A DNA stretch of 29,021 nt from a virus, in the IMG/VR virus record IMGVR_UViG_3300025652_000365, positions 1 to 29,021 of that record, one strand, 5' to 3'. Position 1 is the first letter of the stretch; every line of letters starts with the position of its first letter. Made by a program: the position numbers and the translations under genes. The notes under the pieces are model-generated. The model did no database searches. It saw nothing but the letters and a program-made list of their open reading frames with translations, and was not told the DNA's origin. Of the stretch, positions 8,713 through 29,021 are shown one piece after another.

Positions 8713-11700
8713 ATGCCAGAGATCAAGCATAATTTTACCGGTGGTAAAATGAACAAGGATGTCGATCAAAGACTTGTTCCAAAAGGAGAGTATAGAGATG
8801 CAATGAACATACAAGTGTCAACTTCAGAAGGATCTGATGTTGGAACTGTTCAGAATATATTGGGTAATCAACATGGTTGCATGGGTGGTAGTCTTGATAG
8901 TATTACAAATAATTCTACTACCGTGGGGTCTGTAACGGATGAAAAAACAGACTCTTTATATTGGTTTATATCAGGGGGACAACCCCAACCTGGTCCGAAT
9001 GTCACAATGAGAGATTCTATTTGGAGACATACGTCAAACGATAATTGTAAACCTGTTTTCGTAGATAATTACGGTATTTCACTTACAAATCCTTTTGATG
9101 ACACTTTTATCAGTTCAATTTTAACAAATATAACTTCGTCTGTTTTTAATGAAATAGAAGTTGGATGGACGGTAGTAGGTGTCACTAACGATGGTGTTTA
9201 TTCTAACACAGCTACCATATCTTCTTTTAACACAGCGCCATATATCCCTTTTGATTTTGGCTACACACCAACAATTAATACCGTAAATATTGTAAGCGGA
9301 ATTGCTTTAAACCCTATGATTGACGTGGCGTCTGGTATTAGTTTTGTAATGATACAAGATATAAATGGAAATTTTTCGCAATCCACTCTAAACGAAGTAT
9401 ATATACACGGATGGAGTGGGGGTTCTGTTAATCAGCTTGTTGGTGATACAATAGAAATCCCTGCTTATTCTGGTAACACATATACGATTAACACTGCTAG
9501 TATTGTTTCTTTGACGTACTTAAATGGGGTGGGTGCGCAGGCTGTAAAGTTAATACTAGACACTAATACAGTACTATTTTCAAACCCAACGTTAGATCCT
9601 AGCGTTACCGCAGAATTAACTAGCGGTATAGGATTAGTTGGATCTTATAACGGATCTTCTATTTCCGCTTTAATAACTAGCTCGGATCAAGTAACAACTA
9701 ATATTGCAAACGGAGAAATTATATTCAATACTGTGGATTATGATGTTACAAACACTACTGTTGGAAGTGTTGTTAGCATTAGCGGTATTACGGGTGGTAT
9801 TCAACTTAGTGATTTCTGTGTTCAATCTATAAACACTTCTAACAACTCTATAGTACTAGAAGATTGTCAAACTGGAGTTACTGCACTACAAGGATTTCAA
9901 GTTGGTGGATTATCTTATGGCGTACCTCAAGCTACAGGTGGAGCAATTCAGTTTGCAGTTAGTGGGCTAGTGGAACTTGACCAACCTTTAAATCTACAAG
10001 GAACCTACCAATCGTTATACTTTCAAGGACCAAGAACACTTAATTTTAACGCTAACACTTTAATAACTGGAATTGATGTTGTAGATGACATGCTGTTTTG
10101 GACCGATAACACAACTGAGCCTAAAAAAATAAATATACAACGTAGTATAGACGGAACTCATTTCAACGGTACGCAGCATACTCGCGTTATAAATCCTGAC
10201 CAAGGATTATCTATAGGTAGTAATGTTATGGCGCGTGAAAAACATATAACTGTTATTCGAAAAAGCCCTATTAAATCTTTGTCACTAGAGCTTAGTGACG
10301 GAAGGGACCCTTCTTTAAACTACTCTGCAATTACAATAACTTCAGATGATCCAATAAACACGTCAATAATTAGCTCTAGTAACCCGGCAACTACTACTGA
10401 TTTTTCAGGATTATTAATTGAGGATACTATTCAAGTTTCATTTCCTTATGACTATGATATAAACAGCACGTTTAGTGTTGCTTGGGCTCCTGGTGATTAC
10501 TTATTATTAAAAGAAGAGATTAGCCCAACGGATTTACCATCTACACCTTTGACCAACTGGACAATAAGGGGTAAAATACTAAACGTTCAAAATGGTAATA
10601 ATTTTGACTCAAGCAATGGTGTTGTTGTTGCAACTATTGAGATAGTTGGTTTAAATGGTGTTCCTCCCGAACCAGCCGCGGGCCAAACAATGATGTTTGT
10701 AGCTGATTTAGAGTACTCTGACACCCGTATATTTCAAGATAAATTTCCTAGGTTTTCTTATAGATACAAATACAGTGATGGAGAATATTCTACGTTTGCT
10801 CCGTGGTCTGAGCCAGCTTTTATTCCAACAAGCTTTAATTATGACCCTAAAAAAGGTTGGAACACTGGTATGCGTAACAACCTTCAATCAGTAAAGTTAA
10901 AAGGTTTTAACACATCAACGTATGCGGATATTACATCTATTGATATATTATACAAAGATGACTCTTCTCCAAATGTTTACCTTGTTCAGACGATTAGTCC
11001 AATAGATATTATTTCGAGTGGACAGGTGGATCGCCCTTGGTTTTTAAATGAGTATATCGTAAACTCAGAAAACATAAAAGGTGTAATTCCTTCTGGGCAG
11101 TTGTTACGAGCATGGGATGGAGTTCCTAAAAAAGCTCTTGCTCAAAGCATTAGTGGTAACAGGGTCATTTACGGTAACTACGAGCAACATTATGATTTGT
11201 TAATAGGTGGAGAGATTTATACCCCAGATTTTAATAACAGTTTAGTTGCGTGGGCACCCTCAACAGCTGGATCACCGCAAAAGTCAATTAAATCTTTAAG
11301 GGATTACAAGTTAGGTGTTGTTTTTACAGATAAATACGGTAGAGAGACACCAGTACTTATAGGGGAGAATGGAGGTTTTAGTGTTAAAAAAATTGAATCT
11401 AAAAATTATAACAGGTTGACAGCTTCTTTAAGTGGTGTTCCGCCAAGCGAAATGGCGTACTACAAGTTTTATATAAAAGAAACATCTTCCGAATATTACA
11501 ACGTACCTATGGACCGCTGGTACTCCGCTGAAGACGGAAATATATGGTTATCCATGCCATCTGCTGATAGAAATAAAATTGATTTAGATACTTTTTTATA
11601 TTTTAAAAAGGGAGAGTCTGGCGACAAAAATGTTATAGAAAACTCTACAGAGTACAAAGTGTTAGATATAGATAACGAGGCTCCAAAATGGATTAAAACT

Positions 11701-14700
11701 AAAAAAATTCGTATAGGATCAGCAAAACACAATGTAGCAGGTAATTCATGTTTATTTGGATTTGCCAATGACACAACAAACTTAGCGCCTAAAGTAGGTG
11801 AAATATCTTTTAGTTTAAACTACGACGGTCCTAGTGAGTTTGCTAATTTACCTTTTAAAACATCAACGTTAGCTAGTTTGCAAAACGTTGAAGAGCAATT
11901 GTATATACAGTTTGTAATGGGTAACGACTACTCGTCTCAATACGCTATAAATGAAATTACTTCAGATTTTGATGCGAGTTCTACCGCTGTCAGTAACTAT
12001 TTTATATCGCTAACAAAACCTTTAGATAACGATATAAATATTATATTTGACAACCCAGCGTTTTCTAGTGCAATCAAAGAGGATGTTAGAGTTGTATTTA
12101 CTAAAGGAGTAATACAAAACACGCCAAACTTTGATGGTAGATTTTTTGTTAAAATTGAAAACGATGGTAAAATTCAATCAATGGTTTCTGACAGTACTCA
12201 AGGTATTAATTATCAGGTAAAAGTTTCTATGCCAGTTTATGAGAAAAGTGGAGGTGAATCTATTGGAGATTATGGTATTCACGCTCACGCTTATACTCGC
12301 TCGGGTACTAACTATGTAGCAAAAGACTGGTGTGGCTCTGTAACCGGCGGGTGTGGAAACTTTACTTGGGGAGGGTATGGAGTGTATACAAGTTGCTCTC
12401 AGTACAAAGGAGCTCTCGATAATCCTGGTGGTTACAATTATAACAGACTAGCATCTAGAAAAAGTTTTACAAGAGATTTAGGTGGCGAGACAATGAGCAG
12501 TCTTGGTGATAGTGGTGAGGGTAGTGCAAGTGGTGTGTTTTTTATCAACGCGGGCAAAAGAACTTGGAAAAAGAAAAACACTGTTGGTTGTAACGATGAT
12601 ACGTTAAGTTGGCCTGACAATAATAACATGAATCATCTGTCTCCAGGGTGTAATAATCTTGATTCAGGTTCAGGTTGTGGCGTCGGTTGGATTGACCCTT
12701 TTCCTGGTATCCACCCTGGTGGTGGGGGATCATATATTAATATAGGTTTTTCTGGTATAAAAGCACCAGGTAGTAGTAGTTTAAGATCACTCTTTCATGG
12801 GGGTTATGACTCGGATGGAACTGGTAATTTCCATCTGCACAATTCCATCTCTTCGTTTTTTGGTGTTGGTACAACAAATGACAGTCACAATGACCCAACT
12901 ACTAAAACATTTGTAGAAAGTCTTGTGGCGGGATCAAAATTCAAGTGGAAAGAAGACCCCACTGAAACTATATATACAATAGTAGATCAAACAGAATGTA
13001 GTTATGACGTGCATTTTGCTAGACATTCTGATGGATACTGTATACATGGAGGGGCTTTTATTGGTGATCCAAGTACATATACTAAAAACTGGGATTTTAG
13101 AACAGACAAACCTATAGTTTGGAACCCGTCTAATGATTCTGGAAATGCTTTTATTGACGGTGGTCTTCATTTAGGTGATGCAACTGGACCTGCAGATCAC
13201 GTGCGTAATGTTACCACTGATGGTGGTTTAACTCTAACCCTAGCAGATGCATCCGGAATACAAGTAGGTATGGCTGTAAGACACGCAAATATACCTTTAG
13301 AGTGTAATGTCTTGACTGTTGCTGGAAACTCAGTTGGGATTAGCTTAGCGTCTACAAGCACTGGAGTTGGAGGTGTTGACGTGAGCTTTGGTTTTATAAT
13401 ACGTGTTAAGGGTGGTTTAATTAATGGTATTGATGTTGGTGGAGTTGTTGGGACTAATCCTCAGGAAAACTATCTTTTGGTAGATCGTATTAGTACACAA
13501 TGTAGTAATGGTAATAGTTTAAAACCTATGTACGATCTACATGTTGGAATGGCTCTTGATTTTTGCAACGGCACGCTTAGTGATAATTTTTATGGTCTTG
13601 CTATAAAAAGTATAGGAGAAAAAGACAGTAATGGTAATTATAGAATAGATTTAGGTGGTATGTATAAACCACTTATAGGGTTTGAGGTTTGTCCTAATTT
13701 TACTAGTACTAGTGGCGTAGAGCTTAACAAGGCTTTAGCGGTTAAGCAGGCTGTAATGAATGGGGCTAGTAATTTTTCTGAAGCTAACACGGATTACAGT
13801 TTACAAAACCATCCAATGGCAATAGAAAATGGGGTTTGCGGATCTATAGTAGCGGTAGGTTATACACTTCAATTTCTTCAAGAATACGACACATATAGCG
13901 ATGGAAATGTTATGCCAGAAAACCCTTTTATTTGGGAAACAAAGCCAAAAAATGATGAGGGGATAGATGTTTATTACGAAATTAGTGATAGATATTCTAT
14001 TGAATTGAACCCAAGTACAATCTCACAAACAATACCTTTACAGTCACGAGTAGCTAGCGTACTTAACGAGGGGGGGATGGATTTAATGCAACCACTTGTG
14101 CTTAACGTTGGAGGTCCTGGTGGGGACGAGATAACAATACAAACTAGTATTATTAATGGAATTCCAGGAGCTTGGGTTGGACCAGGATCATCACCAACGG
14201 GAGTAAACCCTATTGTAGTTGGAAGTACTTTAATAATAACTAAACCTAACGGGGAGTCGTTTAACGTTGTGGTTGAAGAGATTATGAATCAAATGGCATT
14301 TGGAACAGGTTATCTTTCCAACAAGTTTCGTCTTCAAAAAAATCTATATGGAAGCGAGCACACTTTAAATTGGCACAACTGTTATTCCTTTGGAAACGGA
14401 GTAGAATCAAATAGATCAAAAGATGTGTATAATGCTAGCTTTATGGGTAATGGCGTTAAAGTTTCATCTGTTTTTGAAGAGTATGCAAAAGAACGTCGTT
14501 ATAGTGGGTTAGTATATTCTGGTATATACAACTCTACATCAGGGGTAAATAATTTAAACCAATTTTCTTACGCTGAAAAAATTACAAAAGACATAAACCC
14601 TATTTATGGTAGTATACAAAAACTACATAGTGGGTGGGGACAAGGTGGAGATTTAGTAACGCTTTGTGAAGATAGAGTATTAAAAATACTAGCTAATAAA

Positions 14701-17700
14701 GATGCTTTGTTTAATGCTGATGGAAATTCAAATGTAACTTCAACTAACAATGTTTTAGGCCAAGCTATTCCTTACTCTGGCGAGTATGGTATGTCTAAAA
14801 ATCCAGAGTCATTTGCATCAGAAGCTTATAGAATTTATTTCACTGATAAAGTTAGAGGTACTGTTATGAGGTTGTCTATGGACGGGTTAACACCTATATC
14901 GAACCATGGTATGAAAGATTGGTTTAGAGATCACCTAAAGCTAGGTGATAAACTGATTGGTAGTTACGACGATAGAAAAGACGAATACAATATTACTATA
15001 AAAGGTGATAATATTGCCAAAACAGTTACATTTAAAGAAGATGTAAAAGGTTGGGTGAGTTTCAAATCATTTACACCTGAAAATGCTATTAGCTGCGCTA
15101 ATGAGTACTACACGTTTAAAGGTGGTGATATATGGAAACATCACAGTGAGGCTGTTGATAGAAATACTTTTTACAACGAAAGCCTTGTACCATCAAGTGT
15201 AGAAGTTATATTCAACGAGGTACCTGGAAGCGTTAAATCTTTCAAAACTGTAAATTACGAAGGCTCACAAGCTAAAGTAACTTCAAAAGATGAAAACAAT
15301 ATCACGTTAATGGATGGCGAGTACTTTAACTTAGAAGCAGAAAAAGGTTGGCATGTTACTAATGTTATTACTAATTTAGAACAAGGTGGTATAACTGAAT
15401 TTATAAAGAAAGAAGGTAAATGGTTTGGGTATGTTATAGGTAACGACGTTATTATATCTGAAGTTGGTAACGCGTCAGGAAACTATAATACTGAGGATTT
15501 TAGTATACAAGGTATAGGTAGAACCTCTGGTACAATAACTAGTGTTGTATATGGCTGTATGGACGACACAATGTTTAATTATAACGACGCCGTTACTAAT
15601 GATGATGGTTCTTGTATTAATTTTAGTCATGGGTGTATGGATCCTGATGCTGACAACTTCCAATTGAGCGCTAATACAGATGATGGAAGTTGCTACTACC
15701 TAGGTTGCACAACGGGACCTTTAGCTGATCAAGAACAGTTTGGTGGATCTATAAACTATGATCCTAACGCAACAGTTGATGATGGTAGTTGTATTCCAGG
15801 TGTTTGGGGGTGTACTCTTTTAGGTTATTTTAATTCTAATCCATCGGCAAACATGCCAAGTAACTACTGTATTCCGATTAATTTTGGCTGTACAGATTCT
15901 AGCGCTAATAACTATGTTGCTCTTGTTGACGAAATGACAGATGTTAATACTGACGATGGAAGTTGTGAATATGAAGGGTGCGCTGATCCTATAGCTACAA
16001 ACTATAGCTTTACAGGTAGTTCACCGGTTGTTGATGGTCCTAATGGAAATTTAACTTATCTAAATGGTACCGCAATTGATGATGGTTCATGTACTTATGT
16101 TGGTGGTTGTATGGATAATACTGCTTGTAACTTTGATGCTTTAGCAACAATTGATAATGGTTTATGCTATTTATGTGCAGATGATAACGCTGATAATTAT
16201 GACGCGGTAATACCTTTCACTGATTACACCTGCCTTGGTGCTTGTACCTACTGTAATGATGTGGCTAGCGTTACAATCACGAACCAAACAACATCTGACG
16301 CTGGAATGAGCAATGGAACTGTCACGATAGAGTGGCCAGCATCTACATCAAGCTCAGTTACTTCGTATGAAGTTTACAATTGGAATTATACTATCCTAGA
16401 AACTATTACATCTTCTGGAAATCCTACAGAAACACTTACTATTACAGGTTTAGAAGCAGGAACTTATAATATATACGTTAAGACTATTTGCACAACTAGT
16501 GATGGTAACACACTTACAGCAGGTGAGAATCTTCCAGGAGGTAACACGGGAGCAGGTCCGCATTTTGGAACACCTGTTTCAACAACTATTACGTCAACTC
16601 CAATACCTGGTTGTATGGATAGTACTGGCGCATTCAATAACGCTGGTGGAACTTGGGGCGCTTGTAACTTTGATGCATCGGCTACTATAGATGATGGTTC
16701 ATGTGAATACACAACATGTACTGGTTGTACTGATAGCGCGTACTCAGAGTATTGTGGTGATTGTTGGGATGCTGTTAACCAAGTTAATGGACCAGAAGGA
16801 AGTGGTTATGGCCCTTGGGTTGCTGATACAATTCCTACTAGTTGTTTAACTCTTATAGTTCCTGGATGTACTGATGCTAGTGCGTTTAATTATGATGCTA
16901 CAGCTACTGTAGATGATGGTAGTTGTGTTGCTATTGTTTTAGGCTGTACAGATGACACGCTAAATAATGATGGAAGTTATGCTGCTTCAAACTATAATGC
17001 GCTCGCTAATACAGATGATGGTAGCTGTAACCCTTATAATTGTCCAACAATAGAAATTGGTCAAAGCCTTTTCAACACTACTTTTAAAATAAACACATAT
17101 AACACCCCGTACCCTAACACCTCTTCTTATTGGAATTCTGTAAATCCAATTGCTACCATTAATGGTAATAATGTAAACCTAAACCCTTGGAGTAGCTTAG
17201 TGAGTGGTAGTACTGTTATTGGTGTTAAAACAAGTGAACCAACAATGAATTATGTTGCGGCTGGGTCAACTACCGCTGATATAGTGTTTTTTATTATGAC
17301 AGCTGATGGCCTTTGTTTTGCAACGGAAACACAAACATTTACTATTGGTTGTACTGATAGCGCAGCTAACAACGCCACTGGCTTTAATATATCTGACAAC
17401 ACACAATGTACATATTCAGGGTGTATGGATGCTACTGCTTGTAATTACAATATTTTAGCAACTACTCCTGACGCTAATAATCCTTGTCTTTTCTGTGGTG
17501 ACGTAAGTGCTTTAAATTACGATGGCGCTACTTGTACTGATGGTTGTGTTTACGGTGGTTGTACTGATAGTACTCCGTCGGTTATGGATCCAAATGCACA
17601 GGCCGCAAGTAACTTTGATGCAAATGTTACGGTAAGTTGTGGTACTAATAACGACAACGAATGCTGTACTTACCATGATGATCAAGATGTAGTCGCGAGT

Positions 17701-18585
17701 TTAGCTGGTGGTACTACCTTCTGGATGGTACAAATTGCATACGAGCCTGGGTCTACTGGTTATACTGAAGCTGTGCTGGCTAACTTTGTATTAGGTGAAT
17801 CTCCAGGCACCATGGTTGGTCTGACCAACCAGTATCCGCTAAATAACATGACTTCTTATCTTGGTGATAGGATAGCACTAATGTTGGTTCCTTCAGTATG
17901 GGAGACTTACGTTTACAACAATAACTTGAGAATAACTCTTAACGCTGACTTTAACGGGGCTTGTGACAATGACTTTTTATCTGATCAACTACCTACAGGA
18001 AGCACTGGTTTTAGAACGTTTGATTTTTCAGTTGGTTGTAAAGACGATAATACCGCTATCAACTATGATCCAAGCGTAGATCTTGGTATGGCTAGTACTT
18101 GTATTGCTGCTAACCCAGGGTGTATGGATTCTACAGCAACTAACTATGACGCTGCATTTAATCAAGATTGTACTGCAACTGGTAGTGCAAATCCTAATGA
18201 CTGCTGTTGTTACACTTGTAGCGAACCTCTTTGGGACTCAACTAATCCTGTTGTTGTTAACACTTGGAACTCTTTAACGTCTCCAACACACGCAACGCAA
18301 ATTACATTTAACTTCGCCGCAGTTAACACGGCAGTTAGTTATACCATTGTAATTCAATTTGGCGCTACTTCAACAATCGTTGGGTCCGGTGTCGTGCCTA
18401 CGTCAATAAACAACGGTATTGCTAGTTACGTTTACAATAGCCCTTGGCCTGCGGGATCAACTTGGTTCCAAGACGGAACTACATACGGATTCGCCGTAGT
18501 GGCAAATTGCGAAAATGAAGATGGAGATTCTTGTGGCACAGCCGGTAGTGGTTACATATCAATTGAATTAAACTCTAATATTTAA
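8713..18585 (+). CDS. Giant tail protein (3290 residues): stabilisation/muzzle-like body plus Cys-rich adhesin-like repeats
   Basis: This is one of the two largest genes here and probably the main tail component and host-contact protein. Its N-terminus (FTGGKMNKDVDQRLVPKGEY, then RDAMNIQVSTSEGSDVG) matches, from memory, the opening of tail stabilisation/muzzle-type proteins of crAss-like and marine podoviruses. Other core segments are DDMLFWTDNTTEPKKINIQR near residue 458, FPRFSYRYKYSDGEYSTFAP near 678, and a block near 2015-2075 with GQAIPYSGEYGMSKNPESFA and FTDKVRGTVMRLSMDGLTPI. Residues about 1180-1500 form a Gly/Cys/His-rich insertion. From residue 2281 to about 3169 there are roughly 18 Cys repeats of the form GC[MT]D..A.N[YF]...A..DDGSC. 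These are interrupted by three beta-rich domains, and a last beta-sandwich-like domain ends the chain. No signal peptide is present, as expected for a virion protein. The body assignment is moderate, the repeat array is directly visible. Confidence 0.75.
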   Translation: MPEIKHNFTGGKMNKDVDQRLVPKGEYRDAMNIQVSTSEGSDVGTVQNILGNQHGCMGGSLDSITNNSTTVGSVTDEKTDSLYWFISGGQPQPGPNVTMRDSIWRHTSNDNCKPVFVDNYGISLTNPFDDTFISSILTNITSSVFNEIEVGWTVVGVTNDGVYSNTATISSFNTAPYIPFDFGYTPTINTVNIVSGIALNPMIDVASGISFVMIQDINGNFSQSTLNEVYIHGWSGGSVNQLVGDTIEIPAYSGNTYTINTASIVSLTYLNGVGAQAVKLILDTNTVLFSNPTLDPSVTAELTSGIGLVGSYNGSSISALITSSDQVTTNIANGEIIFNTVDYDVTNTTVGSVVSISGITGGIQLSDFCVQSINTSNNSIVLEDCQTGVTALQGFQVGGLSYGVPQATGGAIQFAVSGLVELDQPLNLQGTYQSLYFQGPRTLNFNANTLITGIDVVDDMLFWTDNTTEPKKINIQRSIDGTHFNGTQHTRVINPDQGLSIGSNVMAREKHITVIRKSPIKSLSLELSDGRDPSLNYSAITITSDDPINTSIISSSNPATTTDFSGLLIEDTIQVSFPYDYDINSTFSVAWAPGDYLLLKEEISPTDLPSTPLTNWTIRGKILNVQNGNNFDSSNGVVVATIEIVGLNGVPPEPAAGQTMMFVADLEYSDTRIFQDKFPRFSYRYKYSDGEYSTFAPWSEPAFIPTSFNYDPKKGWNTGMRNNLQSVKLKGFNTSTYADITSIDILYKDDSSPNVYLVQTISPIDIISSGQVDRPWFLNEYIVNSENIKGVIPSGQLLRAWDGVPKKALAQSISGNRVIYGNYEQHYDLLIGGEIYTPDFNNSLVAWAPSTAGSPQKSIKSLRDYKLGVVFTDKYGRETPVLIGENGGFSVKKIESKNYNRLTASLSGVPPSEMAYYKFYIKETSSEYYNVPMDRWYSAEDGNIWLSMPSADRNKIDLDTFLYFKKGESGDKNVIENSTEYKVLDIDNEAPKWIKTKKIRIGSAKHNVAGNSCLFGFANDTTNLAPKVGEISFSLNYDGPSEFANLPFKTSTLASLQNVEEQLYIQFVMGNDYSSQYAINEITSDFDASSTAVSNYFISLTKPLDNDINIIFDNPAFSSAIKEDVRVVFTKGVIQNTPNFDGRFFVKIENDGKIQSMVSDSTQGINYQVKVSMPVYEKSGGESIGDYGIHAHAYTRSGTNYVAKDWCGSVTGGCGNFTWGGYGVYTSCSQYKGALDNPGGYNYNRLASRKSFTRDLGGETMSSLGDSGEGSASGVFFINAGKRTWKKKNTVGCNDDTLSWPDNNNMNHLSPGCNNLDSGSGCGVGWIDPFPGIHPGGGGSYINIGFSGIKAPGSSSLRSLFHGGYDSDGTGNFHLHNSISSFFGVGTTNDSHNDPTTKTFVESLVAGSKFKWKEDPTETIYTIVDQTECSYDVHFARHSDGYCIHGGAFIGDPSTYTKNWDFRTDKPIVWNPSNDSGNAFIDGGLHLGDATGPADHVRNVTTDGGLTLTLADASGIQVGMAVRHANIPLECNVLTVAGNSVGISLASTSTGVGGVDVSFGFIIRVKGGLINGIDVGGVVGTNPQENYLLVDRISTQCSNGNSLKPMYDLHVGMALDFCNGTLSDNFYGLAIKSIGEKDSNGNYRIDLGGMYKPLIGFEVCPNFTSTSGVELNKALAVKQAVMNGASNFSEANTDYSLQNHPMAIENGVCGSIVAVGYTLQFLQEYDTYSDGNVMPENPFIWETKPKNDEGIDVYYEISDRYSIELNPSTISQTIPLQSRVASVLNEGGMDLMQPLVLNVGGPGGDEITIQTSIINGIPGAWVGPGSSPTGVNPIVVGSTLIITKPNGESFNVVVEEIMNQMAFGTGYLSNKFRLQKNLYGSEHTLNWHNCYSFGNGVESNRSKDVYNASFMGNGVKVSSVFEEYAKERRYSGLVYSGIYNSTSGVNNLNQFSYAEKITKDINPIYGSIQKLHSGWGQGGDLVTLCEDRVLKILANKDALFNADGNSNVTSTNNVLGQAIPYSGEYGMSKNPESFASEAYRIYFTDKVRGTVMRLSMDGLTPISNHGMKDWFRDHLKLGDKLIGSYDDRKDEYNITIKGDNIAKTVTFKEDVKGWVSFKSFTPENAISCANEYYTFKGGDIWKHHSEAVDRNTFYNESLVPSSVEVIFNEVPGSVKSFKTVNYEGSQAKVTSKDENNITLMDGEYFNLEAEKGWHVTNVITNLEQGGITEFIKKEGKWFGYVIGNDVIISEVGNASGNYNTEDFSIQGIGRTSGTITSVVYGCMDDTMFNYNDAVTNDDGSCINFSHGCMDPDADNFQLSANTDDGSCYYLGCTTGPLADQEQFGGSINYDPNATVDDGSCIPGVWGCTLLGYFNSNPSANMPSNYCIPINFGCTDSSANNYVALVDEMTDVNTDDGSCEYEGCADPIATNYSFTGSSPVVDGPNGNLTYLNGTAIDDGSCTYVGGCMDNTACNFDALATIDNGLCYLCADDNADNYDAVIPFTDYTCLGACTYCNDVASVTITNQTTSDAGMSNGTVTIEWPASTSSSVTSYEVYNWNYTILETITSSGNPTETLTITGLEAGTYNIYVKTICTTSDGNTLTAGENLPGGNTGAGPHFGTPVSTTITSTPIPGCMDSTGAFNNAGGTWGACNFDASATIDDGSCEYTTCTGCTDSAYSEYCGDCWDAVNQVNGPEGSGYGPWVADTIPTSCLTLIVPGCTDASAFNYDATATVDDGSCVAIVLGCTDDTLNNDGSYAASNYNALANTDDGSCNPYNCPTIEIGQSLFNTTFKINTYNTPYPNTSSYWNSVNPIATINGNNVNLNPWSSLVSGSTVIGVKTSEPTMNYVAAGSTTADIVFFIMTADGLCFATETQTFTIGCTDSAANNATGFNISDNTQCTYSGCMDATACNYNILATTPDANNPCLFCGDVSALNYDGATCTDGCVYGGCTDSTPSVMDPNAQAASNFDANVTVSCGTNNDNECCTYHDDQDVVASLAGGTTFWMVQIAYEPGSTGYTEAVLANFVLGESPGTMVGLTNQYPLNNMTSYLGDRIALMLVPSVWETYVYNNNLRITLNADFNGACDNDFLSDQLPTGSTGFRTFDFSVGCKDDNTAINYDPSVDLGMASTCIAANPGCMDSTATNYDAAFNQDCTATGSANPNDCCCYTCSEPLWDSTNPVVVNTWNSLTSPTHATQITFNFAAVNTAVSYTIVIQFGATSTIVGSGVVPTSINNGIASYVYNSPWPAGSTWFQDGTTYGFAVVANCENEDGDSCGTAGSGYISIELNSNI
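12250..13200 (+). other. Gly/Cys/His-rich insertion in the giant tail protein
   Basis: Residues about 1180-1500 differ from the surrounding beta-rich sequence. They are rich in Gly, Ser, His and Asn and hold eight Cys (e.g. WCGS, GGCGN, TSCSQY, VGCNDD, PGCNN, GCGVG, TECSY, GYCIHG). The next ~60 residues (ADASGIQVGMAVRHANIPLE) resemble a small beta module common in phage surface proteins. It is likely a surface-exposed insert; no family recognised. Confidence 0.5.
15553..18219 (+). repeat. Array of about 18 Cys-rich GC[MT]D...DDGSC protein repeats
   Basis: The repeats encode residues 2281-3169 of the giant tail protein. The best-formed units read GCMDDTMFNYNDAVTNDDGSC and similar, with a spacing of about 20-40 residues. 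Eight units end in exact DDGSC; the others are degenerate (DNGLC, SDNTQC, DANNPC, NQDC). The Ser of DDGSC is written with both TCN and AGY codons, so the repeats are old and held at protein level, not recently copied DNA. The paired Cys and clustered Asp suggest small disulfide- or calcium-stabilised modules. Similar repeats are frequent in secreted proteins of marine Bacteroidota. Confidence 0.88.
16258..16494 (+). other. Fibronectin type III-like domain inside the Cys repeat array
   Basis: Residues about 2516-2594 have the pattern of an Fn3 domain. They contain VASVTITNQTTSD, then GTVTIEWPAS with the Trp of strand B, then VTSYEVYNWN, TLTITGLEAGTYNIYVKTIC with the typical Leu-x-x-Gly-Thr-Tyr turn. 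The last ~115 residues of the protein (about 18223-18585) show a weaker version of the same pattern. Fn3 and other Ig-like domains are common on phage tails. Confidence 0.55.
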
Positions 18586-23634: not shown

Positions 23635-26600
23635 ATGTTAGAAGAGTTATATCAAGGTTTATATGATGATGGTTATTTTTACGGTAGTTTTAAGCAGTTT
23701 CAAGAGAAATTTAAAGACTTAGATTACAGAAAAACATTGCACGCTGGTATTGTAAATGATGGTGATTTTACGGGTGACTTTAATACTTTTGAAAATAAGT
23801 TTACTGGAGCAGCTACTGAAGTCCCTTCGTATAACCCGGAGACTATTTTATCGTCATCAGATTATGCTTCACCTATAGATGTTGCTGGCTATAACATTGA
23901 TGCTCACACTAGTTTGTTTAATAAAGGTGAGGGAGCGGCTGTAAGAGAATTACAAGAATTATACCCTGGCTTTAACTTTGAAGAAGTAGCGTTAGGATCT
24001 AAAGAAGGTGGTGGGTTAGATGCTATTAAAATTTCTACTAAAGATGGTAAGAACTCCGCTACGTTCGACATGAACATTGGCGGTTTAAATCTTTACGGTG
24101 GAGCTGGTTTAAGTGAAAAAGAAGGACGAGATAGATCTTTTAATATCCTGAAAGATTTTGTTAACCAGTATTCTACTGATGAAAATTTTGCTGCTCAAGA
24201 CAAGGCTAAAAAAGCAAGAAGAACAACTTGGGAAAATATAAATACTCAAAGAGATGAAGTTGCCGCTGAAGAAATAGCTAAAATACAAGAAGACTTTGAG
24301 AGTGGTGAGTTGTTTAAGCTTAAGACTGATGCAAAAATTGGACTTATGGGTAATCTTGAAATTTTAATAGGCGGTAGAGAGGCTATACCAAACGTTGTTG
24401 TAAACTCTATTACACCTTATAAGGAAGAGCAAAAAAGAGCTTTAGATGATTTAAAAGCAGAGTATAAGGCTGATGGAAACAAAAGCGCACCAACCACGGA
24501 AGAAGTGCACAAGAGGGCTTTAGAGTATATTATAGATGGTATTCAAGAAAAAGCATTAACTGAGGTTATAGAAAGAGACGAGTTGCAAGGTAATATTACT
24601 TTACCTTCTCAGGTTGGTTTGCAAAATAAAGTTATAAACTATACAAATGATTTATTTGGGGACAACAAAGCTAGTTTAGCTGAAAAATACACTATTGCTG
24701 CTAAAGAGTTTGATGTAGACTTTAACAAAGATTACAACACGCTTTTAGCAAAAGCTTTAGAATTAGATAATGGTGTTGAAATTATTAGGTTTAATGAAAT
24801 AAACTCTCAACTAGAAGATCCTGATTTTGAGTTTGATATTATACCTGGCGAAAGTGTAGTTACATTACAAAGTGGTAGACAAATTCCAGAAAGAATATTT
24901 AATGAGTTTAAAGGGCTTAATGTTAAAATTAATAACAAGGTAAAAGCCTTTAAGTCTTTTCAAGAAAAAGTAATGGAAAAAGCTGTTCAGTACAGTGACA
25001 ATGCTGCTGCGATTGATATTGCTAGAAGAAATTACGATGGTTTAGAAAAGTTTTTAACCACTACAGGTTTGGGGTTCACTGAAATGTATTTCAATGCTAC
25101 TATCGGTATGAATTTAATGGGTGGTGGAGAGAATAAAGAGGCTATTGATTTTCTGTCTGATTTTAAAACGTCAACGTCGGAAATTAGAGATTCTTATGCT
25201 AAAGACGTGCAATTTGATGATGCTTTTAGTTCTCTTACAAACTTTGGTACATTTGTGGCTCAAGAAGTAGCTAATCAAATACCTGTATTTGCAACTTTAG
25301 CAATACCTGGCGTTGGTGCTGCAACTCTTGGTTTAAGTGCTTTTGGAGAGCATTATACTGATTTATCTATTGAAAGAAACTCTGAGGGTGGAAGACAGCT
25401 TTCTAATGCGGAGATGTGGTGGATGAGTGCTGGTTTTGGCGCCTCTGAATTAGTATTTGAATCTTTAACTACAATTCCATTGCTTAGAGCTGCTAAAAGA
25501 GGTTTCTCAGCTACACCAGGGGCTAAAACCTTAACAGACTTAACAATAGGTAAATACTTTAAAAAGAATATTGGTAAAACAGTATATGGTATAGCATCGG
25601 AGCCTATAGGTGAGGGTATGACGCAGTTAACTCAAAACATTATAGATGGAAAGCCATTAACGCAAGGATTAGCTCACGCTATGTTTTCTGGACTTATGTT
25701 TGGTACAACTTTAAGTACAGCTCCATTTGCGAGAGGTTTATATTTGTCTCAATTTAACGATCACTCCGCTAACATAGATTATAGAGAGCGTGTTGATAAG
25801 ATTAAAAATCTTAACAAGACAAATTTAAATATAAAAATAAATTTAAAGGCTGGTATTACTGGTGTTGGAACGCAGGCTGATATAGATGTAAACAACAAAG
25901 CAATTGCTGATTTACAAGCTGAAAACGAAACGCATGTTAGAGAGCAAGAGACTCTTGTTAACAGTTTAAGCGACGATGCTACAAAATATTATTTTGCGTT
26001 AAACTCTGAGTTAGAAGGTATAAAAAACGAGGCTATTGAAGTTGATAACAATACTACTTTAACAGATCAACAAAAAAACGATAGACTAAAACAATTACAA
26101 GTAAAGTTTGATTCTAAACAAAGACAAAAAGATTTCTTTAGAGATAAAAACGCTTTTGGAAATGAGTGGGACGCTTACTCTGGTTTAGATGAAAACGCTG
26201 ATGACGTAGCGGCTTTAAAAAAGCAAGCTGGCGATGATTTAGTTAATGTTAACTTAGAAGCAACTAAAGCACGTAGAAAAGAACCAACGGAAATAGAGGT
26301 AAATCAGAGAGCTAAGTTTTTATATAACCTTAGAAAAATTAAAAAAGATCATGCGGCCAACTCAAAGGCTGGTTTAACAGACACTAAATTATTTGAAACA
26401 AACCAAGATGCTATAACTTGGGTTGAAAAACAAACAAACATATCTGAAGCCACTAAGGCTAAGTTTCTTAATGACATAAAAGATAGCAACGCTCATGGTG
26501 CAAATATAAAAACGCAAGACGGTCAAGTGCCATTTATTATTGCTAATAACATGGCTATGGATGATAGGTTGGAAACAAGAACGCATGAAGTTGGGCACTC

Positions 26601-29021
26601 TGTTTTTATAAAAGCTATTGGTGCTAATCCAGCTGCTTTTAAAGATCTTAGTGGACAAATAACAGAATATTTAAAACAAGCTAATCCAGCGGCACACAAA
26701 AGATTGCAGTTTCGATTAAATCAAGCTGGTGCTATTAAAGATAAGTTATACGATGAAACTATAATGGTATTTTTAGAAGAGGTTGCTAGTGGTAAAGTTG
26801 ATGTAGCTAAATCAAAACAAGCAGGGTTTTTAGCTAACCTTATGAATAAAGGTATTGAAAAAGTTGGTGGTAAAAAAATTGATTTAAGAGGAGAGACAGA
26901 TGCTATAAACTTTTTAATTGGAATAGCTAAGAAAATTAAAGCTGGTACTATTGACGTGTCGGATATACAGGCTATTAAAGAAAATAGAATAGCTAAACAA
27001 GCTAGGAAGTCTGCACCTAAAACTAAAGCTGAACCTACAACAAAGTTTTCTAAAACTCAAACTAAAACAATAAATGATCTTGGTAAACAAATTGTAGATG
27101 AAGACGGTACTGTAACGGATTTAGAAAAAGAAGGTCAGGGTAATGCTTACTTTCAGGTTGAAGCTGAAAATATTTGGAAGCAAATACAAAAACAAGGTTT
27201 ATTAGATGGCCTTATATTAGCTCAACCACACGAAGGAGTTAATGATAAAACGTTTTTAGATACCACTTATGCGGAGCTTTATTCTTGGTTTAAAAAATAT
27301 CAACCTGAAAGAAAAAATCCTAGTGGATTATTTGGTCATATAAACCCTCAAATACCTAATAGAGCAAAACAAGCTTACAACGTTATAACAAAAGGTGAAA
27401 TAAAATACACGCAAGAAATAGGTGAGACAACTAAAGAAGGTGAAGTAAAAGTTCAGGTTGCAGCGGAAACTGATGCGGCTATGGAGGCTTTTGAAACAGA
27501 AGATTTATCATTTCAAGGTCAAGCTAAGAAAAATAAAGCAAAAAAACAAAGATACTCTCAACTTAGACAGGAGATGGGTTTCAAAAGAGAGGTATTAGAT
27601 AAGGGTGGTAATGTTGTTGAAGAAGGTGACAAGATACATAAAGAGGTATTAGAAAGTGCTAAGAAAAGTTTAATAATGGCTTATGGTGCTACCCAGAATA
27701 TTGCAGATATTCAGCTAAGAGCTAAGGCTATAGTGGCTAAAATGAAAAAAGAATATGCTAGTCTTAACAGCCCTTTGTTTAAGCAAATCAAAAACTTCTT
27801 AACTTACGGTGTTGCTGATGCTTATGTAAAAAGAGGTACTAAAGACATTTACATATCTCAATTAAAAAAGCATAGAGAAGCTATCTTTGAAAATATATCT
27901 ACAGCTGATTTAGTTCAAATGGAAAGAAATACCCCTGAGGTCGATAGAATTTTTACAAATTTTGTTAAAACGTTAACTTCTATAGAGCAAGTGCAAGATG
28001 CTGTAAATAAAGAGCAATTACCCCCAGAAGCTTTAAACAAAATTACAAAAGACAAGAAAACTGGTAAAGGTGCTTTCTCACCTTCTTTATACGATAAGAT
28101 AATGCCAACACCAAATGAACTTGTGAGTTGGGCTGATCAACCGGGTATCAATCCGGTTACCGGTGCTAGACAAGGTTTAAAAGGTACTAGAAAAGATGGT
28201 ATTGCAATGCGAATATCAAACAGTTTGATTACTGATGCTACGATGGAAGCTGAGCAGTCTGCTGAGGTTCAAGAAAAAATTGCAGACATGGGTATTAGCC
28301 CGTCAAGCACCGCTGAATTAGCAGCTGCAATCGGTAGAGAGGTTAATCTTAAATTTTCTAAGAGTAACGCAATAGGAGACGTTACAGCAGCTATAGATGG
28401 CGCGGGAGATGTTAGCGTGTATTCTCAAATTAAGTTCTCTAAAGCTCATAGAGATGTTTATGAGAAGCAATTAACTAAAAGAAGACCTGATCTTACTGAA
28501 GATCAAAGAAAAAACGCTGTTCAATCTGTATTTGACTTTGTAGATGGTAAAGAAATACCTAATAATAAGAAATCTAAGTATGAGAAAATGGCTATGCACT
28601 ACATGGCTAATGGTTACTTAATACTACCTGAAGATGGTTATAAAGTTGTGGAAGCTGAGAGGTTAGCTACTCAGAAGAAGATAGATCCATTCTCTTTTAA
28701 AAACCCTAATGTTCTAATAGAAACATTTGTTGGGGAAGTTAAAGGCACTAGAACTAATCCTGATAAAGTAAAAACTTTTACTGACAAAACAGAATTTACT
28801 AATGGTGTTACAGTTTATAATGTTGAGAATTCTAGGCAGGGGCAAGCTGATACTAGAAAAGTAATTGATACTCACTTTGGTAAAAAATCTAATCCTTGGT
28901 GTTTAGCCGCTAGAATGCCAATTCAAAGTGTAACTCGTACGGTTTACGGAGCTCAAGATGTAAGCGCGCAAGAAAAGATGTGGGAAAAACAAGGTTGGAT
29001 TGTGGAGCAAACAAAAAGTCG
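23635..29021 (+). CDS. Giant multidomain virion protein with HEVGH zinc-peptidase motif (3' end outside window)
   Basis: The frame is open from the ATG at 23635 to the window end, at least 1795 codons, without a stop. Two copies of a ~22-residue motif open the protein (residues 5-26 and 35-56). Residues about 60-530 are charged and helical. Hydrophobic Gly/Ala-rich stretches occur near 535-574, 596-625 and 678-707. Coiled-coil sequence spans about 740-880. HEVGH at residues 984-988, with the acidic FLEEVAS about 60 residues later, looks like a gluzincin-type zinc peptidase. KFSK occurs at 1137, 1573 and 1600, between segments of different character. Near the edge is NPWCLAAR (1753-1760). This is the style of phage 'large polyvalent proteins', which are packaged and delivered into the host with several enzyme modules. 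The protein is probably ejected. Overall function and full length cannot be told from this window. Confidence 0.8.
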   Translation, partial: MLEELYQGLYDDGYFYGSFKQFQEKFKDLDYRKTLHAGIVNDGDFTGDFNTFENKFTGAATEVPSYNPETILSSSDYASPIDVAGYNIDAHTSLFNKGEGAAVRELQELYPGFNFEEVALGSKEGGGLDAIKISTKDGKNSATFDMNIGGLNLYGGAGLSEKEGRDRSFNILKDFVNQYSTDENFAAQDKAKKARRTTWENINTQRDEVAAEEIAKIQEDFESGELFKLKTDAKIGLMGNLEILIGGREAIPNVVVNSITPYKEEQKRALDDLKAEYKADGNKSAPTTEEVHKRALEYIIDGIQEKALTEVIERDELQGNITLPSQVGLQNKVINYTNDLFGDNKASLAEKYTIAAKEFDVDFNKDYNTLLAKALELDNGVEIIRFNEINSQLEDPDFEFDIIPGESVVTLQSGRQIPERIFNEFKGLNVKINNKVKAFKSFQEKVMEKAVQYSDNAAAIDIARRNYDGLEKFLTTTGLGFTEMYFNATIGMNLMGGGENKEAIDFLSDFKTSTSEIRDSYAKDVQFDDAFSSLTNFGTFVAQEVANQIPVFATLAIPGVGAATLGLSAFGEHYTDLSIERNSEGGRQLSNAEMWWMSAGFGASELVFESLTTIPLLRAAKRGFSATPGAKTLTDLTIGKYFKKNIGKTVYGIASEPIGEGMTQLTQNIIDGKPLTQGLAHAMFSGLMFGTTLSTAPFARGLYLSQFNDHSANIDYRERVDKIKNLNKTNLNIKINLKAGITGVGTQADIDVNNKAIADLQAENETHVREQETLVNSLSDDATKYYFALNSELEGIKNEAIEVDNNTTLTDQQKNDRLKQLQVKFDSKQRQKDFFRDKNAFGNEWDAYSGLDENADDVAALKKQAGDDLVNVNLEATKARRKEPTEIEVNQRAKFLYNLRKIKKDHAANSKAGLTDTKLFETNQDAITWVEKQTNISEATKAKFLNDIKDSNAHGANIKTQDGQVPFIIANNMAMDDRLETRTHEVGHSVFIKAIGANPAAFKDLSGQITEYLKQANPAAHKRLQFRLNQAGAIKDKLYDETIMVFLEEVASGKVDVAKSKQAGFLANLMNKGIEKVGGKKIDLRGETDAINFLIGIAKKIKAGTIDVSDIQAIKENRIAKQARKSAPKTKAEPTTKFSKTQTKTINDLGKQIVDEDGTVTDLEKEGQGNAYFQVEAENIWKQIQKQGLLDGLILAQPHEGVNDKTFLDTTYAELYSWFKKYQPERKNPSGLFGHINPQIPNRAKQAYNVITKGEIKYTQEIGETTKEGEVKVQVAAETDAAMEAFETEDLSFQGQAKKNKAKKQRYSQLRQEMGFKREVLDKGGNVVEEGDKIHKEVLESAKKSLIMAYGATQNIADIQLRAKAIVAKMKKEYASLNSPLFKQIKNFLTYGVADAYVKRGTKDIYISQLKKHREAIFENISTADLVQMERNTPEVDRIFTNFVKTLTSIEQVQDAVNKEQLPPEALNKITKDKKTGKGAFSPSLYDKIMPTPNELVSWADQPGINPVTGARQGLKGTRKDGIAMRISNSLITDATMEAEQSAEVQEKIADMGISPSSTAELAAAIGREVNLKFSKSNAIGDVTAAIDGAGDVSVYSQIKFSKAHRDVYEKQLTKRRPDLTEDQRKNAVQSVFDFVDGKEIPNNKKSKYEKMAMHYMANGYLILPEDGYKVVEAERLATQKKIDPFSFKNPNVLIETFVGEVKGTRTNPDKVKTFTDKTEFTNGVTVYNVENSRQGQADTRKVIDTHFGKKSNPWCLAARMPIQSVTRTVYGAQDVSAQEKMWEKQGWIVEQTKS
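23647..23802 (+). repeat. Tandem 22-residue motif at the N-terminus of the giant virion protein
   Basis: Residues 5-26 and 35-56 share the pattern L..G...DG.F.G.F..F..KF (period 30). Ten of 22 positions are identical, while the DNA copies are diverged. The regular Gly and Phe spacing suggests two small copies of one fold or a binding tag. I recall similar DG[YF]...F..F openings in other virion-packaged phage proteins. Confidence 0.6.

Follow-up and report, generated by a model that had tools for sequence, protein, structure and literature searches.

Repeated peptide tags downstream of an embedded zincin suggest self-processing of giant, probably virion-borne proteins in uncultured marine phages

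The window analyzed here (the whole stretch of 29,021 nt) is a 29-kb IMG/VR virus record from a marine bacterial virus. Its genes are arranged in the order terminase, portal, capsid-region genes, a gene for a 3,290-aa protein, several small genes, and finally a giant gene. This order matches that of Cellulophaga phage phi38:1 (Pervagoviridae), in which gp101, annotated as 'structural protein', occupies the place of the giant gene. In the 3,290-aa protein (window positions 8713-18585), residues 2149-2240 match the crassvirus muzzle C-terminal domain (PF25729, E 4.6e-7). Beyond them lies a long Cys-rich region built of repeats of the type GCMDxxAxNYDxxAxxDDGSCxY. The giant gene and its N-terminal features are the following.

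23635..29019, + strand: giant multidomain (polyvalent-type) protein of at least 1,795 aa; the contig end cuts the ORF
24898..25755 (residues 422-707), + strand: segment in common with phi38:1 gp101 (21.7% identity by tblastn, E 1e-6); presumed virion/injection part
26485..27000 (residues 951-1122), + strand: predicted zincin-type metalloprotease domain (HMM of 69 homologues; AlphaFold model)
26584..26598 (residues 984-988), + strand: HEVGH, predicted to provide two metal-ligand His and the catalytic Glu; invariant in 69/69 homologues
26755..26757, + strand: E1041, putative third metal ligand; invariant in 69/69 homologues, on predicted helix 1038-1051
26776..26778, + strand: E1048, conserved acidic position seven positions past E1041; D in 77% and E in 17%

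Given the synteny with phi38:1 gp101 and the distant similarity to this 'structural protein', the giant protein is likely a virion protein. The same synteny suggests that it is probably ejected into the host. The most hydrophobic stretch of the window protein by hydropathy (residues 549-567) lies inside the segment shared with gp101. Neither Pfam nor PHROGs yielded anything useful for the giant protein. In a tblastn search of 50,697 phage records, the sole hits were seven Cellulophaga records, via the 422-707 segment; the zincin and everything beyond it up to the C-terminus had no match in any cultured phage of this collection. Relatives were taken from IMG/VR, which contains over 580 loci coding for the protein's conserved C-terminal domain. 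The closest of them (L003) is a full-length protein of 3,383 aa that is 78% identical to the window protein in the best segment. Contigs that belong to this phage group or to distant relatives of it (L106, L108, L110-L113) are present in metagenome-assembled genomes labelled Maricaulis and Woesearchaeota, probably as mis-binned phage DNA.

The original prediction described HEVGH at residues 984-988 as a zinc-peptidase motif within a giant virion protein, and as the sole peptidase signature of the window. The motif is present at these residues (nt 26584-26598) and is the only HExxH among all six-frame ORFs of more than 60 aa. Its conservation in homologues, whose failure would have spoken against a peptidase, is complete within the zincin type of the window. 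We compared 69 homologues of this type, a diverse set in which nearly all members are 14-37% identical to the window, and found exactly four invariant columns: H984, E985, H988 and E1041. For the third ligand, the prediction had pointed to an acidic helix (MVFLEEVAS) about 60 residues downstream. An invariant Glu on a downstream helix does exist, 57 residues after H984, but it is E1041, which lies three residues upstream of the quoted string (starting at residue 1044) and thus outside it. Within the string, 94% of homologues have D or E at the E1048 column, and E1049 is not conserved. The H984/E985/H988/E1041 pattern is, on this conservation, a predicted zincin site of the gluzincin type, in which the third zinc ligand is a Glu on a downstream helix. 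Together with the gp101 synteny, the invariant HExxH and helix-borne Glu lend good support to the proposal that a giant virion protein contains a zinc-peptidase domain.

The wider family gives a similar picture. Of 85 distinct giants longer than 1,700 aa, 82 carry HExxH (0.6 expected after shuffling), and the remaining three have H-H-D-x-x-H at the same place. None of 306 other ORFs from the same loci contains HExxH. A second batch of relatives had HExxH in 67 of 68 giants. The types of zincin are swapped among relatives (HELLH, HELQHxxD, HHExxH), and some zincin is almost always retained at that place. Several relatives have an HExxHxxD form, which corresponds to a clade described by Iyer et al. 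2017 (PMC5512222) with Asp three residues past HExxH. Five proteins (L045, L082, L083, L227, L229) have HHDxxH at the zincin place, with the catalytic Glu replaced by Asp, and keep the downstream peptide tags described below in an altered form (FSE or ESK).

The fold search called for by the original prediction was run on an AlphaFold model and proved weakly informative. A first model built from 11 sequences was poor (pLDDT 61) and its matches were noise. The model from 69 sequences reached a mean pLDDT of 70.5, with several ten-residue blocks at 85-92. In it, E1041 lies on the third of the helices that follow the one bearing HExxH (model residues 100-113). The predicted helices 975-995 and 1038-1051 agree with the pattern described for polyvalent-protein metallopeptidases (MPTases), namely an HExxH helix, a ligand Glu on a later helix, and variable inserts. 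Before the HExxH helix, the models show with low confidence an N-terminal helix and two short strands, compared with an N-terminal helix and a three-stranded sheet in the type of Iyer et al. Foldseek with the 69-sequence model found no match at E<=0.001 in PDB or viral models. In a structural comparison, the catalytic domain of anthrax lethal factor (itself a gluzincin of family M34, with HExxH and a Glu on a later helix) ranked 2 and 3 with Z of 3.3 and 3.0 and 14-16% identity, scores that are within noise; it is the only peptidase among the matches listed, and its VIA Z of 3.3 is tied with unrelated chains. The family PF18818 (MPTase-PolyVal) was absent among the 25 families listed for the 69 members at E<=1, and it was found in 0 of 10 relatives' records, a search in which the control gave no signal either. 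The domain thus fits the description of Iyer et al. by its active-site pattern and not by the Pfam model, and we do not file it under PF18818.

The second feature of these proteins is a short peptide tag. In the lineage of the window it reads phi-[KR]-F-S-[KR]-[ST], with the variants FSE, FSA, ESK and LRS in other lineages. The pattern [KR]FS[KR][ST] occurs 86 times in the giants (1.1 expected) and in none of the 306 other ORFs from the same loci, and the tetrapeptide [KR]FS[KR] occurs seven times in L003 alone (0.24 expected). When repeated 5-mers were searched for blindly, this tag ranked first among the repeats of eight giants related to the window. The window protein has three tags.

27043..27057 (residues 1137-1141), + strand: tag 1, KFSKT, at the junction of the zincin and the next module; candidate cut site; homology to L070 starts here
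28351..28365 (residues 1573-1577), + strand: tag 2, KFSKS, at a module junction; candidate cut site; approximately 25 alignment ends at residues 1560-1600
28432..28446 (residues 1600-1604), + strand: tag 3, KFSKA, at a module junction; candidate cut site; alignment ends here; KFSKS in L003

At the DNA level, the 86 copies are spelled in 53 different 15-base versions, and TCN and AGY codons for the tag Ser are both used at background rates, which argues for selection on the protein and not on the DNA. A bias of the tag Lys toward AAG proved to be a general bias before Phe: in the giant genes of all relatives, AAG is used for 60% of Lys before Phe versus 17% overall, perhaps through avoidance of AAATTT runs.

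The code looks lineage-specific, since LPD38 proteins of other Bacteroidota generally lack FSK tags. One unrelated polyvalent-type LPD38 protein with a missing N-terminus, on a contig of a Bacteroidota genome (L145), has three copies of FYS[KR] (FYSKS, FYSKI, FYSRS), hinting that similar tags may exist elsewhere. The most distant relatives with zincins (L110-L113) have no recognizable tag; distant relatives are 39% identical in the C-terminal domain.

The distribution of tags along the chain is strongly one-sided. In proteins with a recognizable HExxH, there is no tag in the 57,505 aa upstream of the motif versus 83 tags in the 153,165 aa downstream. The tags also coincide with the borders of exchangeable modules. 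The density of pairwise alignment ends within 10 aa of a tag is five to six times that of the region as a whole, and for 126 of 130 tags such an end lies no more than 20 aa away (74 expected). For example, the N-terminal halves of the window protein and L070 are unrelated and carry different zincins (HEVGH versus HELQHIND), yet from window residue 1137 on, the first residue of tag 1 (KFSKTQ), the two are 54.5% identical. Approximately 25 alignments between the window and its relatives stop at residues 1560-1600, at tags 2 and 3. L068 and L070 are 73% identical over approximately 1,650 residues that follow unrelated N-terminal modules with different zincins. A single giant chain thus combines several domains, with modules swapped between relatives. 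The other mark of a polyvalent protein, delivery of the chain by the virus, is suggested by the synteny with a structural protein.

The modules of full-length relatives include a HAD-type phosphatase-like domain (DFDDT; approximately residues 2517-2680 of L003, and homologues), which is among the most conserved cargo modules and has a tag at both edges. PHROG matches suggest that it is kin to polynucleotide kinase/phosphatase. In a scan of 16 giants, two had a zeta-toxin/polynucleotide-kinase-like P-loop domain and three matched a PHROG polynucleotide kinase family. The giants of L004, L010, L016, L051, L055 and L075 end in an arginine-repeat tail (TRTRTRTRTR or SRSRSR) with a possible role in DNA or RNA binding.

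Tags within one protein vary in concert, being FSK throughout, or FSE, or ESK. We compared three anchored tag positions with the tag after the HAD-type domain. FSE was found with FSE, and FSK/FSR with FSK/FSR (5:0 versus 0:36, P 1.3e-6, a value inflated by the kinship of the proteins). The pattern was seen again in the second batch, fetched later (4:0 versus 1:25, P 1.8e-4, inflated in the same way). At the anchored positions, L054 and L089 have FSE, L085 and L087 have FSA at two tags, and L082 and L083 have ESK; the ESK before the HAD-type domain was discounted as an anchor in the ESK lineage, as ESKGI is also present there in FSK-type proteins. In L045 the tags read MFSEV, SFSES and QFSES, so that K is changed to E at three tags. 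The stretch around each of these tags has its nearest counterpart in a different FSK-type protein. The middle of L045, used as a query, had no match beyond itself. In the second batch, L233-L235 combine a pair of LRS/LKS-type tags around the HAD-type domain with HETRH zincins. By tree position or neighbourhood, the concerted switch took place in at least three separate lineages. Unrelated sites that change together require a shared reader.

The simplest such reader would be the zincin of the same chain. The deviant tag sets (FSE, FSA, ESK, LRS) mostly accompany unusual zincins of the same protein, the zincin is almost never lost from full-length proteins, and phi38:1 gp101, a protein of 1,691 aa that shares a 286-residue segment and the same place in the gene order, has neither HExxH nor any of the tags. 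We therefore propose, with a probability of approximately two in three and from sequence comparisons, that the giant protein would be an injected polyprotein processed at the tags by its own embedded zincin. Its chain would be ordered as the N-terminal virion/injection part, the zincin, exchangeable modules and the conserved C-terminal domain. Acting in cis or from one copy on another, the zincin would cleave the chain at the short tags that separate the modules. With cutting confined to sites downstream of the zincin, the N-terminal part and the protease would stay in one piece and the later modules would be freed, either at virion maturation or after entry. Cutting after refolding in the host would fit the view that crassvirus cargo proteins are extruded in a partly unfolded state (PMC10172136). 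As for the bond that might be cut, the ESK and LRS variants share no one obvious scissile residue, which counsels caution. Thermolysin-type zincins favour a large hydrophobic residue directly after the cut, so that a Lys/Phe cut would suit the main tag. Three sets of proteins count against a self-processed polyprotein: L010, L063 and L104 have a good zincin and few or no FSK tags, the distant L110-L113 have zincins and no clear tag, and the five HDxxH giants retain tags. The moderate confidence of the AlphaFold model and its lack of a significant fold match also count against it.

The observations can also be read in other ways. The zincin might serve as an effector against host proteins or cleave other virion proteins, with the tags serving another role. 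This option is listed for such domains by Iyer et al. 2017 (PMC5512222), and frequent change of zincin type is also a trait of host-directed effectors. We consider this unlikely because the tags occur only in the same protein, only after the protease, at module joints and in concert, with none in other ORFs of the same loci. Among the targets offered by the original prediction (the protein itself, other virion proteins, or host targets), these features favour the protein itself, and the other two appear less probable. It is also rather improbable that the tags would be cut by another protease (of head maturation or of the host), or bound and not cut, as a packaging or chaperone signal. Concerted variation in itself demands merely some shared reader, and in internal proteins of T4-like and phiKZ-like phages cut motifs double as packaging signals, which counts in favour of this possibility. 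However, the specificity of an outside reader would have to shift lineage by lineage, the association of deviant tags with unusual zincins of the same protein points elsewhere, and a packaging signal leaves the position exclusively downstream of the zincin unexplained.

The two remaining alternatives concern the nature of the tag and of the domain. As the tags coincide with recombination joints, they could be DNA-level recombination sites that survive because modules were swapped there. The 53 spellings, the background Ser codons and the concerted amino-acid change speak against this origin, which codon use largely refutes, and we regard it as barely credible. A degenerate or non-proteolytic metal-binding fold in place of an active protease would accord with the weak structural model, the lack of a clear fold match and the HDxxH in five members. 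On the other side, the presumed catalytic E985 is invariant in 69/69 homologues along with the ligands, which argues for catalysis, and such a fold seems very unlikely.

Polyvalent proteins were defined by Iyer et al. 2017; according to that work (PMC5512222), zincin-like domains are found in approximately 36% of them, self-processing was proposed, and DdrB of phage P1 is processed before packaging while the virion RNA polymerase of N4 is not. Like the window protein, polyvalent proteins including P1 DdrB are huge multidomain virion-associated chains with an embedded HExxH...E metalloprotease; the window group differs from the zincins of Iyer et al. in having no match to PF18818. In a search of open-access papers, we found no description of cut-site tags, their confinement downstream of the protease, their place at module joints, their concerted variation, or the swapping of the protease. 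Thus self-processing was predicted before, and the putative cut-site code appears new as far as these sources go. A functional analogy may be drawn with the polyproteins of eukaryotic RNA viruses, which likewise have one chain, an embedded protease and repeated cut sites at module joints. There is no homology between the two, and the protease is a cysteine or serine protease in the RNA viruses and, as predicted here, a metalloprotease delivered as a virion protein in the phages.

No domain is commoner in phage polyvalent proteins than the zinc-protease domain, whose role has been a matter of guesswork since 2017. With likely substrate sites that can be read from the sequence, self-processing becomes directly testable, and the tags offer a computational way to divide giant injected proteins into their true functional units. 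We lean slightly toward the broader view that a large group of uncultured marine phages delivers polyproteins, each of which is cleaved at a recurring peptide code by the exchangeable zincin that it carries, with the protease and the code changing together and the tags acting as plug-in joints for the exchange of releasable cargo. If true, protease and cut-site code would change together within single viral proteins, and these phages would provide a bacterial-virus counterpart of the polyprotein strategy of eukaryotic viruses, in which the limits of each cargo could be read from the cut sites.
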